Source: Minisyncoccota bacterium (GTDB lineage Bacteria; Patescibacteria; Paceibacteria; UBA9973). From it: a stretch of 5,864 bases of DNA. The notes beneath the pieces are model-generated. The model did no database searches. It had not been told where the DNA came from and saw only the letters and a list, made by a program, of their open reading frames with translations. Location of the stretch: the NCBI GenBank assembly GCA_028696935.1, contig JAQVGE010000066.1, positions 1-5,864 on the forward strand, given 5' to 3'. Of this stretch, positions 49 to 5,573 are shown piece after piece. A program made the translations under genes and the position numbers. Numbering within the stretch: the first letter of the stretch is position 1; each line of letters opens with the position of its first letter.

Positions 49-744
49 CTAAGATTTAACTTCTTCATCTATCTCCTCTTCTTCCTCTTCAACTGATAGC
101 TTCAGAATTTCTGGGGCAATACTTTCTATTTCTTCAATTGTCTTAAAACCAGTGACTTTCTTTTCATTAACAATAATTGCTGGTAGTTTAGTGTCTTCTA
201 TCTTATAAATCTTCAAAAGAGCCTTAAGGGCTGAAAGTTCTAAACTATAATCAAAAGAGTAAACTCTTAGATTAGGATATTTTTGTCTTAATTCAGTTAA
301 GACATAGCCTTGTTTAGTACATTCTGTACAATTATTTGCGGTTGTATAGAAATACAGTAAGGGAATAAGATTGCCTTCACATTTTTGATTTATCTTTTTA
401 GTCAAAAGATAATCTTTAATTTGAAGTAAAGAATAATATCTCTTTAGTTCAACCAATTCTTCGCGACCTTTTAAATTATTTTCACTAAAAGTTATTTTGT
501 CAGCTAATTCGTTCAACTCGGTAGACAAATTACCAGTACCATCATCTTGCTCACAAGAAAGCTCTGAGAGTAAAGAAAACTGAGTCTCTGAAGATAGAAT
601 ATCCGTCGCTAATTTATTTTGAATTGACCGAATATTTTCTAATTTTTTGTCAGCAAAAAAATTACTTAAACCACCAGCAACGGCAAATAAAGCTGCGGTA
701 ATAACAAAAACAATAATATACTTTTTCCAGTCGTTTTTAACCAT
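49..744 (-). CDS. Membrane-anchored thioredoxin-fold protein with CTEC motif
   Basis: Predicted 231-residue protein. Residues 1-8 are basic and 9-29 form one membrane segment, which suggests a signal anchor with the bulk outside the cytoplasm. Residues 32-120 are charged and probably helical (coiled-coil-like stalk), with C64 and C122. The thioredoxin-like core spans about 126-212: a hydrophobic strand, then C139-T-E-C142 as the CxxC site, a helix, a second strand near 159-165, and L187-P188 in the place of the cis-proline before the strand AIIVN. Residues 219-229 form an almost purely acidic tail. In the thioredoxin superfamily CxxC plus cis-Pro supports thiol-disulfide exchange, but the TE dipeptide is not that of a classical thioredoxin (GP) or DsbA (PH/PY), so reductase, oxidase or isomerase direction cannot be told. 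It starts with ATG 4 nt after the glycosyltransferase stop, so it is probably co-transcribed from the same promoter; no Shine-Dalgarno is obvious. Confidence 0.8.
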   Translation of the reverse strand: MVKNDWKKYIIVFVITAALFAVAGGLSNFFADKKLENIRSIQNKLATDILSSETQFSLLSELSCEQDDGTGNLSTELNELADKITFSENNLKGREELVELKRYYSLLQIKDYLLTKKINQKCEGNLIPLLYFYTTANNCTECTKQGYVLTELRQKYPNLRVYSFDYSLELSALKALLKIYKIEDTKLPAIIVNEKKVTGFKTIEEIESIAPEILKLSVEEEEEEIDEEVKS

Positions 745-2112: not shown

Positions 2113-2140
2113 TAGGCAAAAAATAAAACTATGATATAAT
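2113..2140 (+). promoter_or_regulatory. Extended -10 promoter of the DsbA-like gene; leaderless start
   Basis: A perfect TATAAT at 2135-2140 is preceded by TGA (extended -10, TGN). The -35 region is weak (TAGGCA at 2113-2118, 4 of 6, 16-bp spacer), as is usual for extended -10 promoters. Only 6 nt separate the -10 box from the ATG, so the expected start point, 7 nt downstream, is the A of the ATG at 2147. The mRNA should therefore be leaderless, and no Shine-Dalgarno is needed or present. It faces away from the glycosyltransferase promoter. Confidence 0.75.
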
Positions 2141-2146
2141 CTACGA

Positions 2147-2851
2147 ATGGAAAATAATAAAAAACAATCGATATCAGTTCCTGCAGCTATTATAGTTGCT
2201 GGATTATTAATAATGATGGGTATCTTATTAACTAATAATAAAAACAATTCTCAAACAGAAGAACCTAAGACATTATCAGAACAGATAGATGTCTCAAAAG
2301 ACGAACTGCTTACTTGTTTAGAATCTAAAGATTACGAGGTTTTAGGTAATGAAATTATCGCCAGTGTAGACAGTGCAATGAAAGCTATACCTGAAAATGA
2401 GCGAGGAACTCCTTATGCCGTTGTCTTAAAAAACAATTCTCCGGTTACAGATCTTCGTGGAGCTTATCCTTATGAAAGCGTTAAGACACTAGTTGATGAA
2501 CTTGTTAATGAAGAAATAGAAGCTAATTATGAAGGAGAAGTTCCTCTCCCTAATGAAAAAGACCATGTCTACGGAAACCCTAATGCCCCAATAACGGTTA
2601 TCGAATATTCTGATTATGAGTGTCCTTATTGTAAAAATTTCCACGAAACCATGAAAAAGGTAGTTGATGAATCTAACGGTCAAGTTAATTGGATTTATCG
2701 TCATTTTCCTATTAAACAAAATTCTTTCGAGAAATCAGCCGCAGCTGAATGTGTAGCAGAAATAAAAGGAAATGATGCTTTCTGGCAATATTCCGACTTA
2801 CTTTTTGGTCTTTTAGAACCAGCTCAAAAATCAGTTTCCGAACAACTATAA
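2147..2851 (+). CDS. Membrane-anchored DsbA-like thiol-disulfide oxidoreductase, apparently circularly permuted
   Basis: Predicted 234-residue protein with one N-terminal membrane anchor (about 11-29) after a short polar tail; the domain should face outward. Residues 151-221 are the first half of a DsbA/Thioredoxin_4 fold: strand VIEYSDYE, catalytic C159-P-Y-C162, helix, the YRHFP strand (184-188), then AAECVAE and FWQYSDLLF. The second half normally follows with a TCL.S..Y helix, a GTP cis-proline loop and a final PYE..K helix. Here it is absent after 221, where the protein stops within 13 residues. Instead it lies before the CPYC half: SEQIDVSKDELLTCLESKDY (44-63), G87-T88-P89, then GAYPYE (105-110) and the helix to about 120. 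All parts of the fold are thus present in swapped order, joined by a linker at 121-140. C57 and C202 match the second, probably structural, cysteine pair of the family. A terminator follows directly. Its likely job is forming or rearranging disulfides in exported proteins. If the permutation is wrong, it is a truncated DsbA with an unusual N-terminal extension. Confidence 0.85.
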   Translation: MENNKKQSISVPAAIIVAGLLIMMGILLTNNKNNSQTEEPKTLSEQIDVSKDELLTCLESKDYEVLGNEIIASVDSAMKAIPENERGTPYAVVLKNNSPVTDLRGAYPYESVKTLVDELVNEEIEANYEGEVPLPNEKDHVYGNPNAPITVIEYSDYECPYCKNFHETMKKVVDESNGQVNWIYRHFPIKQNSFEKSAAAECVAEIKGNDAFWQYSDLLFGLLEPAQKSVSEQL

Positions 2852-2859
2852 AGCAAAAG

Positions 2860-2886
2860 AAAACCCCGCTTAATTGCGGGGTTTTT
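2860..2886. terminator. Strong bidirectional intrinsic terminator
   Basis: A perfect 10-bp inverted repeat (AAAACCCCGC, loop TTAATT, GCGGGGTTTT; 2860-2885) ends in a T-run on the plus strand and has the matching A-run upstream, which serves as a T-run on the minus strand. It begins 9 nt after the stop of the DsbA-like gene and lies between two convergent genes, so it should stop transcription in both directions. Confidence 0.92.
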
Positions 2887-2907: not shown

Positions 2908-4017
2908 TTAATTAGTTTTTTCAGTGTCTTTGACCGGTTCATTTTTTGTTTCAAAAACTGACTTAATTACAACACTACCATCAGGACTCTTGGTGTACTC
3001 CATTGTTACCCGGTGAGCTCTCTGAGTTTTCAGAAACTCATCCGCCACAGTGGCGTGATCATTACTGATCATAACTTCATCAGAAGAAGTTACTGCAGCT
3101 GAATCAGATTTCTCTTTGGGAACCTTAGTAACTGATTCTCTAACTTCATCTTGGGCAACACTATCGCTTGGAATTGGGCTTTCTGTTCCATCCTGGTTAA
3201 TTAAAACCTCAGGAACAAAAGTTAAACCTGTTCCAGAAAAGTAATCACCTCGACGAGCATCATTGCCACATCCTTGTAAAAAATAAATGGTCTGTTCGTT
3301 ACCGTTTACCATGATTTCTCCTGCATAAGCAGGAACTTTACGAAGGTGGATTCTTTTAGGCTTTTCCTGTCCTTGATAGAACACGATGGCCCGACCGGAT
3401 AAAGTTCCTCTCCTGATGTTTCTAACATCAAGAATAGAACCAGGAAAACGATTCTCGGCAACTTCTCTCATACGATCATGAGCGCCAGCATCGTTCACTC
3501 CTCCTTCTACCTGAGGTTTTCCAGCAGCAACTGGATCAATATTCCGGAACCTCATTGAGTAAATCAAATAAGCTAATAACAGTAAACCGATAAATACAAA
3601 TAACCAGACCAACCAAGATACATCTGTAGTAGATTCTTCTACTGGTAAAACCGGTTTAGAAACAATCGTGTCTTCAAATACCGGATTGACTTGTGCTTTG
3701 CCGATGTTTAAAACTTCTCCAGGAAGAATCAAACAATACCAAATACCAGTAGTTTCGTCTTTCCAAACGCGACCAGGCTCCTGCAAAAATTCATTCTCTT
3801 TAACAATTTGTCTCCACTCGAAACCATTGTTGTAAAAAACTTTCGCGCGATCCCATGTGTTATGTCCACTTTTTACGGTATCTTTAACAACATAGAAAAA
3901 TTCAGGCTGGACGATTCTGGTCTCATAAGAATCCATACTTACCGTATCCTGATTAGTTTTGCAAGACAAAACAATCAAAGAAACAATCAACACTGAAAAT
4001 AAAAAAACTTTTTTCAT
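2908..4017 (-). CDS. Predicted lipoprotein with LysM-like domain, internal membrane segment and unrecognised C-terminal region
   Basis: Predicted 369-residue protein starting with ATG. Residues 1-18 are a lipoprotein signal peptide with the lipobox LVLSC-like end VLSC and acyl-acceptor C19. Residues 41-106 resemble LysM, a peptidoglycan-binding module: YVVKDTVKSGHNTWDRAK at the start, an IVKEN segment in the middle and LPGEVLNIG at the end, with a longer WKDETTGIWY insertion than usual. Residues 134-154 form a membrane segment followed by basic residues (RFR), which by the positive-inside rule puts the rest in the cytoplasm. Residues about 177-270 look like a small folded domain (basic, with GDYFSGTG near 257-264) that I do not recognise. 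Residues 271-369 are charged, Ser/Thr-rich and probably disordered. A lipid anchor plus a transmembrane helix would tie the LysM part between wall and membrane. The gene is noticeably richer in GC (about half in several 60-base stretches) than its neighbours, which hints at separate ancestry. It is a single-gene unit with its own promoter and a structured leader; no Shine-Dalgarno is visible. Confidence 0.75.
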   Translation of the reverse strand: MKKVFLFSVLIVSLIVLSCKTNQDTVSMDSYETRIVQPEFFYVVKDTVKSGHNTWDRAKVFYNNGFEWRQIVKENEFLQEPGRVWKDETTGIWYCLILPGEVLNIGKAQVNPVFEDTIVSKPVLPVEESTTDVSWLVWLFVFIGLLLLAYLIYSMRFRNIDPVAAGKPQVEGGVNDAGAHDRMREVAENRFPGSILDVRNIRRGTLSGRAIVFYQGQEKPKRIHLRKVPAYAGEIMVNGNEQTIYFLQGCGNDARRGDYFSGTGLTFVPEVLINQDGTESPIPSDSVAQDEVRESVTKVPKEKSDSAAVTSSDEVMISNDHATVADEFLKTQRAHRVTMEYTKSPDGSVVIKSVFETKNEPVKDTEKTN

Positions 4018-4045
4018 AACAAAAAATTTTAAAATAACGTGATTT

Positions 4046-4111
4046 GAGTCGAGGGTTAGCTATCCGATTGGCTCCCGTAGGACCAAAACCTAGATACTAA
4101 CTTGCTCACTC
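4046..4111 (-). ncRNA. Candidate structured 5' leader RNA (three bulged helices, UNCG-type loop)
   Basis: The first ~70 nt of the predicted lipoprotein mRNA can fold into one long hairpin, read on the minus strand. Helix 1 pairs GAGU-GAG (4111-4105) with CUC-G-ACUC (4053-4046). Helix 2 pairs GUUAG-UAUC (4101-4093) with GAUA-G-CUAAC (4064-4055). Helix 3 pairs UUGG-UCC (4086-4080) with GGA-G-CCAA (4075-4068). The loop is UACG (4079-4076) closed by C-G, the exceptionally stable cUNCGg tetraloop; this tetraloop exists only in the minus-strand RNA. Each helix has one unpaired G on its 3' strand. Internal loops are 3/1 nt and 6/3 nt. The structure begins about 6 nt after the predicted transcription start. 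It does not match a riboswitch or RNA family that I recognise; it could be a cis-regulatory element, a protein-binding site or a stability element. Confidence 0.6.
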
Positions 4112-4123
4112 TCATTCATATAT

Positions 4124-4153
4124 ATTATAGCATATTTATATACTATTTGTCAA
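4124..4153 (-). promoter_or_regulatory. Near-perfect sigma-70 promoter of the lipoprotein gene
   Basis: On the minus strand: TTGACA (4153-4148, perfect), 18-bp spacer, TATAAT (4129-4124, perfect), with TGC immediately before the -10 (extended -10). The predicted start is near 4117, so the 5' leader is about 100 nt. The first base of the -35 hexamer coincides with the outermost base of the adjacent terminator inverted repeat, so termination of rpoD and initiation of this gene share the boundary. Confidence 0.88.
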
Positions 4154-4202
4154 GAGATATATCAAAAAAACCTTTATCATAAAGGTTTTTTGATATATCT
4201 CT
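4153..4202. terminator. Long inverted repeat, bidirectional terminator downstream of rpoD
   Basis: Two arms of 24 paired bases (4153-4177 and 4179-4202, one bulged A in the A-run) surround a single central C; in RNA the loop would be about 3 nt. Inside the arms an ACCTTTAT/ATAAAGGT core is flanked by A7 and T6, so on the minus strand the stem TAAAGG is followed by seven T (4170-4164), and on the plus strand by six T. This is the expected form of a bidirectional intrinsic terminator. Its position after rpoD on the minus strand makes it the likely end of the dnaG-rpoD transcript. Confidence 0.85.
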
Positions 4203-4241: not shown

Positions 4242-5573
4242 TTAATCAAAATAATTCTTAAGGCGAGCTATTTTTTCATTATTACGAAGCTTTTCATGGA
4301 CTTTTGCTTCAATCTGACGAATACGTTCACGTGTCACTCCAAACTCAGCTCCTACTTCTTCTAAAGTGTGCTGAATACCATCATTTAAGCCGTATCGAAG
4401 CTCTAATATTTTACGTTCTTTTTCAGAAAGAGTATCAAGCACTTCTTTAATCTGATCCGATAAAATACGACGAGAAGAATCTTGGTCTGGGCGAAGAATT
4501 TTATCATCTGGAATAAACTCCCCTCTTGTAGACTTCTCATCATCATCTCCAATTGGTTGTTCCAAAGAAACAGTTTCTTGATTAATCTGTTCAATTACGT
4601 GAATTTTTTCTACTTCTAGCCCCATCTCTGAGGCAACTTCTTCAACTAAAGGATCACGTCCTAAATCTTGAGACAACCTACGAACGACTTGTTTATATTT
4701 AGAGATTGTTTCAACCATATGAACAGGTATACGAATTGTCCTTGATTGATCAGCTAAGGCTCTTGTAATTGATTGTCTAATCCACCAAGTTGCATAAGTA
4801 GAGAATTTATATCCTTTTGTCCAATCGAATTTTTCAACAGCTTTAAATAAACCTAAATTACCTTCTTGAATTAAATCAAGTAAAGTTAAATCAGAACTTC
4901 TACCAACATATTTTTTAGCAATTGAAACAACCAATCTCAAGTTTGCTCGAGCAAGTAGATTTTTAGCCTCTAAATCTCCTTTTTCAATTCGACGAGCTAG
5001 TTCTCTTTCCTCGCTTGCAACAATTAATGGATATTGCCCTATTTCTTTTAAGTACATCTGAATTGAATCGTAAGTTTGAGCGTCTTTACTATATTTTAGG
5101 ATAAGTTTTTCGGTCTCATTATCCATATCAAGTAAATTACCACCTTCTAGAACATCAATTCCAGCCGTTGCGAATTTTTCATAAAGTTCATCAAGAAAAA
5201 GTATGTTACCTTCGATATCAGGAAAAACTTTAATAATTTCATCGTAAGTAATAAAGCCCCTCTTCTTCCCTTTTTCAATCATCTCATTTGATTTATTTTC
5301 TAAATCAAGAGCTTTCTCTATTTTAGATTTTGAACTTTTAATCTTCTTACTCTTTTTAGCAACAGCTTTCTTTTTTGTTGTCTTTGGTTTAGCAATTTTC
5401 TTTTTGTCTGTCTTTTTAACTGTTTTCTTCTTTGGGACCTTAGTTGCTGGTTTCTTTTTTATGATTTTTTTAGTAGTTTTTTTAACTACCTTCTTTTTCT
5501 TTGGAGCTAAAATCTTCTTTTTGTTTTTAGTTTTTTCTTTTGATTTTATTTTTTTTGATTTTACTTTAGACAT
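4242..5573 (-). CDS. rpoD: RNA polymerase primary sigma factor (sigma-70) with lysine-rich N-terminus
   Basis: Predicted 443-residue protein that directs core RNA polymerase to housekeeping promoters. Residues 1-87 are a low-complexity basic tail, about half lysine with many KKK and PKK repeats, resembling histone H1-like tails. Residues about 104-142 resemble region 1.1. Region 1.2 spans about 167-199. Region 2 spans about 202-287, including [20 protein letters not shown] (231-250) for core binding and the [17 protein letters not shown] stretch (256-272) for -10 melting and recognition. Region 3 spans about 288-365. Region 4 spans about 376-440, with the helix-turn-helix near 402-430 (recognition helix [10 protein letters not shown]) for the -35 box. 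All core motifs look intact. The ATG lies 4 nt after the stop of the upstream partial gene, consistent with the dnaG-rpoD operon order; no Shine-Dalgarno is evident. The promoters seen in this window match the -35/-10 consensus expected of this factor. Confidence 0.97.

Follow-up and report, generated by a model that had tools for sequence, protein, structure and literature searches.

Circular permutation is usually regarded as rare within a protein family. A laboratory permutation of DsbA was reportedly described by Hennecke in 1999, and the DsbA entry 1DSB is presumably of Escherichia coli origin. The closest described system is 1UN2, a circularly permuted E. coli DsbA engineered at Q100/T99, whose chain is given as 197 residues (PMC2395249) and whose structure paper is cited in PMC2213659. 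Here we describe a window of 5,864 nucleotides, the whole stretch of DNA analyzed, from a tiny, uncultured Minisyncoccota bacterium (Patescibacteria; contig JAQVGE010000066.1). Its forward strand carries a gene (2147..2851, an open reading frame [ORF] conserved as a family) for a 234-residue DsbA-like oxidoreductase. The encoded protein shares the half order of 1UN2 and is cut at a nearly identical place, but 1UN2 is man-made, whereas the window protein is natural, probably membrane anchored, equipped with a second cysteine pair, and part of a set from multiple lineages.

Other described systems differ in other respects. Canonical DsbA-like proteins of the Patescibacteria and Pseudomonadota (Thioredoxin_4, PF13462; DSBA, PF01323) share the CPxC motif and the cis-proline (cis-Pro) site, and 79 of 87 canonical rows in our alignment have the second cysteine pair, but their halves are arranged the other way round. 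Wolbachia alpha-DsbA1 (3F4R and 3F4T, the latter a C97A/C146A structure according to its title) has a homologous CPxC half but is also canonical in order. In the TRXL1 domain of UGGT, a eukaryotic multidomain sensor, the helical subdomain has moved as a block, whereas the window protein has this subdomain split into two parts and begins with the cis-Pro half. DsbB and VKOR, which partner DsbA from the membrane, are described as mutual circular permutants (PMC4555120), but they are four-helix membrane proteins and not thioredoxin folds. Neither a natural circularly permuted DsbA nor a permutation in Patescibacteria appeared in titles or abstracts among the matches listed in a literature search that covers subscription journals sparsely. 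Laboratory-permuted DsbA is known; what appears to be new is a natural permuted enzyme, DsbA-like by homology, motif, and modeled fold.

Along the window protein, C57 and the GTP cis-Pro site (residues 87 to 89) precede C159-P-Y-C162 and C202. This reverses the canonical linear order, in which the CPxC half leads into the cis-Pro half, and the gene was therefore classed as a permuted variant and not as a canonical member. In tblastn searches of 80 loci from genome contigs, 14 canonical-order loci (L012, L013, L014, L018, L019, L020, L025, L027, L028, L030, L032, L070, L074, and L080) matched the second half of the query and then, downstream, its first half; in L012, query residues 121 to 222 were followed by residues 29 to 117. 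The first-half high-scoring segment pairs (HSPs) had E values of 4e-7 to 0.009, calculated for a search of these loci only, and 21 to 36% identity. Loci such as L001 to L011 matched in the query's own order.

A profile hidden Markov model was built from 59 canonical relatives. In native order the window protein scored 149 bits against this profile and matched positions 5 to 105, whereas in a rotation scan with 3-residue steps the chain started at residue 125 scored 190.5 bits over positions 5 to 187 of 188, with lower scores beyond that start. In rotated form the chain thus matches the unpermuted profile along nearly its whole length, as in a natural permutant. When 136 permuted proteins were started 44 residues before GTP, every one gained, by 37.3 to 75.5 bits (mean, 45.2), and 135 extended to profile position 180 or further. 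Controls in which the moved half was shuffled (n = 680) gained 2.7 bits on average and 17.3 bits at most, and rotation cost each of 60 canonical proteins at least 56 bits. A rotation that kept the transmembrane segment inside the chain gained just 0.3 to 6.4 bits (shuffled control, up to 14.5) and was superseded.

Pfam recognized positions 2 to 87 of 165 of Thioredoxin_4 (PF13462) at residues 136 to 219 of the window protein (74.3 bits, against a cut-off of 23.2, for this partial profile only). Two permuted relatives matched both halves unrotated: L037 has DSBA positions 125 to 190 at residues 78 to 149 and then Thioredoxin_4 positions 3 to 75 at residues 177 to 248, and L076 has DSBA 124 to 190 at residues 86 to 152 and then Thioredoxin_4 3 to 87 at residues 170 to 256. 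In a profile search of solved structures, 4N30 matched query residues 136 to 221 and then 48 to 116, the second piece with only 4.1 bits. Together, the tblastn matches, rotations, shuffled controls, and Pfam matches bear out the swapped half order that the original prediction had read from the letters alone, along with its expectations that the N-terminal part would match the cis-Pro half and that the re-ordered chain would outscore the native one. Its count of 13 residues after FWQYSDLLF needs correcting to 14 residues after F220.

A protein search returned 496 proteins at an E value of ≤1e-3, the query included, from several sources. The best 120 of the 496 are 231 to 254 residues long and, excluding the query, cover 92 to 100% of it with 52 to 62% identity; some family members are labeled Paceibacterota or Nomurabacteria. 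C57, G87-T88-P89, C159, C162, and C202 are invariant in 135 rows (120 proteins and 15 from loci), so that both cysteine pairs and the cis-Pro are retained, as had been predicted, and the cis-Pro loop of the DsbA-like family is present at the sequence level. Both CPxC cysteines occur in 139 of 139 tree rows.

The predicted monomer model is confident and superposes in sequence order on both halves of 1UN2 (model residues 42 to 226 with chain residues 11 to 189). A comparison of predicted models gave the same fold as that of an unpermuted relative, and the permuted protein is thus modeled as a DsbA fold. From its N terminus the chain would run from an anchor through part of the helical subdomain and the cis-Pro strand-strand-helix to a linker across the old termini; the CPxC strand-helix-strand and the remaining part of the helical subdomain would follow, and the chain would end at the inter-helix hinge. 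Residues 11 to 29 (2177..2233, forward strand like all parts of this gene) are the probable membrane anchor, being hydrophobic by eye and helical in the model, at low confidence there. The cis-Pro half, equivalent to the second half of canonical DsbA and delimited by rotation and the model, spans residues 42 to 120 (2270..2506) and contains C57 (2315..2317) and the cis-Pro loop (2405..2413). Residues 121 to 139 (2507..2563) link the former C terminus to the former N terminus; the best rotation starts lie at residues 125 to 128, and the model has no regular structure between helix 109-120 and strand 140-143. The CPxC half, equivalent to the first canonical half, follows at residues 140 to 221 (2564..2809), with the active-site motif at 2621..2632 and C202 at 2750..2752, and residues 222 to 234 (2810..2848) form a new C-terminal tail. 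In the model, helices 51-60, 63-77, 193-207, and 209-221 form a helical subdomain inserted in the thioredoxin fold; helices 51-77 precede and helices 193-221 follow the CPxC strand-helix, which differs from the UGGT TRXL1 type of arrangement. All 120 family rows end in Leu (2843-2848 region in the window), 90 of them in QL, although the tail is of low confidence in the model.

Profile, Pfam, structure-model, and tree evidence supports a circular permutation that kept the cis-Pro site along with the two cysteine pairs. We consider it very probable that the protein is a membrane-anchored, extracytoplasmic DsbA-like thiol-disulfide oxidoreductase and a true circular permutant, in its modeled fold as in its sequence, of the canonical DsbA of the same phylum, and that this form has arisen more than once.

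The likely function was approached through partners and neighbors. In the window and in L002, L003, L004, L005, and L007, the permuted gene has rpoD on one side and, on the other, a GT2 glycosyltransferase gene plus a gene for a membrane thioredoxin-like protein with a CxxC motif; in the relatives a dnaG-like gene lies beyond rpoD. Gene orders were compared for the window, L001 to L005, and L007; L008, which falls in the same gene clusters as the window-clade loci, and L097 were assigned by cluster membership only. In the window the syntenic neighbor (49..744, reverse strand), identified by clusters and alignment, is a membrane-anchored thioredoxin-like protein with CTEC and an L-P-A cis-Pro-like site; CxxC is kept in all six aligned neighbor proteins (the window and five relatives), and this protein is a possible redox partner of the permuted one. 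Among 44 genomes, all carriers of permuted genes, DsbB was found in 13, including 8 of 8 in the window's clade, and VKOR in 24 (23 above the cut-off); the two together account for 31. A VKOR gene adjoins the permuted gene or sits one gene away in L010, L101, L108, L110, L111, and L117. From this occurrence and proximity we take the protein to be a thiol oxidase on the outer face of the membrane, reoxidized by DsbB or VKOR. C159 would exchange disulfides with substrates next to the cis-Pro loop, as in canonical DsbA, and reoxidation would fall to DsbB in the window's clade and to VKOR in other clades.

The same permutant might instead serve chiefly in reduction or isomerization and receive its electrons from another membrane thioredoxin, for example the syntenic CxxC protein. 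This would suit both the synteny of that gene, which by cluster membership extends to the window and six relatives, and the 13 of 44 genomes in which neither VKOR nor DsbB was matched. We nevertheless judge it unlikely, given DsbB in all eight window-clade genomes and, in other clades, six loci with VKOR close to the permuted gene. In two loci (L010, 1185-3196; L101, 290-2268) a permuted DsbA gene is clustered with VKOR and with a diverged canonical DsbA that lacks the second cysteine pair. VKOR matches also lie inside open frames of 522 and 544 residues in L143 (G006) and L146 (G391), which suggests fusions.

To compare the two forms, the ORFs of 142 loci were searched with separate profiles of the CPxC half (A) and of the cis-Pro half (B), superseding an assignment by regular expression (18 permuted, 60 canonical, and 2 other). 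The order was A-B in 92 ORFs (87 distinct sequences) and B-A in 55 (45 distinct), and one ORF had A only and was left out of the counts; both same-order orthologs and unpermuted relatives, the search for which had been proposed at the outset, thus exist. These loci were found with permuted queries, which biases the sample. Among the named sources of permuted genes are Paceibacterota, Nomurabacteria, Colwellbacteria, Komeilibacteria, Kaiserbacteria, Peribacteria, Kerfeldbacteria, Woesebacteria, and WWE3. In the phylum of the carrier G002, itself included, 311 of 379 genomes had some match and at least 30 had a verified B-A gene. Across 299 Pseudomonadota genomes (262 matched), no permuted-order row free of internal stops was present among the matches listed; two rows there had both halves in permuted order (G685 and G683), each with internal stops. 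Both forms share a genome in G131 (L104 and L136) and, judged by match order, in G004 and G005. Among the relatives, permuted order is common and recurs.

Trees were built from re-ordered alignment columns. With identical proteins removed (154 rows reduced to 139), the tree required 18 order changes, at least 5 of them forced by starred branches. A more careful tree of 98 rows, from which 12 permuted and 29 canonical rows were left out (near copies, a long branch, and thinning), required 17 order changes (bootstrap, 16 to 19), at least 9 of them forced. Trees of single halves gave 19 and 18 changes, with at least 4 forced in each. Permuted rows are nested among canonical rows, which points to descent from unpermuted relatives, and canonical order is the form also held by the Pseudomonadota rows. 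Well-supported groups in the careful tree mix the two forms: L011 with canonical L042 (100/95), L049 with L120 (100/96), L104 with L136 (99/89), L031 with L044 and L023 (100/98), and L037 and L107 with five canonical rows, some labeled Peregrinibacteria or Peribacteria (99/92). The order changes include gains and losses, and therefore the number of gains is not fixed. The permuted form would have come from gene rearrangement of canonical DsbA genes in the same phylum, more than once.

We also judge unlikely a single ancient permutation in the phylum, after which gene conversion, transfer, or errors in the trees would have intermingled the two forms. Each half supplies at most 90 columns, many forks are open, bootstrapping of the careful tree had not fully converged, and losses are counted among the changes; both forms can also share one genome, as noted above, so conversion is possible in principle. 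Forcing the permuted rows into one clade, however, lowered the log-likelihood by 249 and was rejected by the approximately unbiased test (p = 1.4e-90), and permuted rows were united in 0% of 200 bootstrap trees. The forced changes in the careful tree and in either half alone also speak against it, as do cut points that differ between lineages and the G131 pair, which is just 52% identical.

In profile positions, the C-terminal half of permuted proteins stops at 95 to 120 and the N-terminal half begins at 90 to 123, and many permuted proteins end shortly after FW..D.LF. Complementary ends further along occur in L062 (ends 120, starts 119), L103 (118 and 122), and L130 (118 and 123); L129 ends at 120 and starts at 109. 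The C202 and C57 cysteines flank the cut, outside the active site, and align with cysteines of Wolbachia alpha-DsbA1, in an alignment whose second piece scores only 4.7 bits. All 52 permuted rows carry the pair, and the eight canonical rows without it form one clade. A C57-C202 disulfide probably ties the helices on both sides of the cut; the contrast with that one clade suggests that it staples them and keeps the halves covalently closed after permutation, in which case cutting the hinge would cost little stability. We are evenly divided on whether DsbA of the Patescibacteria is a natural permutation hot spot, with many independent permutations that each opened the helical subdomain at one hinge, made possible by an older C57-C202 disulfide that already tied the halves.

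The route by which permuted genes arose left a possible trace. KTLSEQI (residues 41 to 47; 2267..2287) and C-terminal KSVSEQL (residues 228 to 234) score 23 in a 7-mer comparison in which the next best 7-mer scores 13, so the repeat that had been noticed at both ends of the domain holds. In 120 family rows the N-terminal copy was the top 7-mer match in 45, with a median rank of 2 where the motif was found, and the mean score was 8.7, against −3.0 for shuffled sequences (family rows are not independent). Tandem duplication followed by loss of the outer halves, as originally proposed, is plausible and fits this retained repeat. Adjacent canonical genes exist (L156 and L157) and are possible raw material for permutation.

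Several results weigh against the reading of the gene favored here. No A-B-A or B-A-B intermediate, the expected relic of a duplication, was present among the ORFs of the 142 loci or 15 further loci. Complementary ends occur in single cases only (L062, L103, and L130), and reciprocal cuts, sought through breakpoint covariation, found no support (rho = 0.08, p = 0.55, n = 52 rows). Thirteen of the 44 carrier genomes lack a match to either membrane partner. The window protein has a diverged cis-Pro half (21 to 36% identity in the 14 HSPs), and its residues 1 to 125 alone match no Pfam family at an E value of ≤1. This last result would also fit a fusion or extension, in which a thioredoxin half-domain was joined to an unrelated N-terminal domain that resembles a cis-Pro half, or a protein that needs a swapped dimer or a second chain. 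We find this very improbable: rotation gains 37 to 75 bits in 136 of 136 proteins, the N-terminal parts of L037 and L076 match DSBA positions 125 to 190 and 124 to 190, and both halves of the monomer model, which is confident, match 1UN2, although a monomer model is compatible with a swapped dimer too. An assembly or gene-calling artefact, a chimera being the failure that the original prediction had named, is suggested only by the shortness of the contig and has a negligible chance in the face of a family of 496 proteins, the best 120 of which cover nearly the whole query and come from several sources, and of a gene neighborhood shared by relatives, which rule it out.

Around the permuted gene, a candidate sigma-70-like promoter (2113..2140, forward strand) matches by consensus only; the whole stretch has 7 such sites, against 3.0 expected. 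The −10-like TATAAT ends six bases upstream of the ATG (region 2113-2147), and the mRNA may therefore be leaderless, on the sequence as read. An intrinsic terminator-like hairpin lies 3' of the stop codon (2859..2886, forward strand), a site called on the minus strand as well. Downstream, a reverse-strand gene (2908-4017) encodes a 369-residue protein with a lipoprotein-like start, one hydrophobic stretch, and no Pfam match; none of the ORFs in the other permuted-gene loci of the gene-order comparison was related to it. A long AT-rich hairpin occupies the intergenic region at 4153-4202. All Rfam matches in the window, this region included, scored below gathering scores, and a candidate structured RNA at 4010-4130 (reverse strand) was unsupported (z = −1.2). 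RpoD, encoded at 4242-5573 (reverse strand), has a long, lysine-rich N-terminal extension.

In these bacteria, one redox fold has been permuted repeatedly within one phylum, with canonical sisters nearby. Annotation that depends on order detects just one half of such permuted domains. The permuted and canonical genes offer a natural series for studying protein permutability, the origin of permuted genes, and the effects of order on folding, secretion, and partner choice, and they link the laboratory permutation of DsbA to natural evolution. If the family is indeed a permutation hot spot, nature would have arrived repeatedly at the cut selected by protein engineers for cpDsbA Q100/T99.
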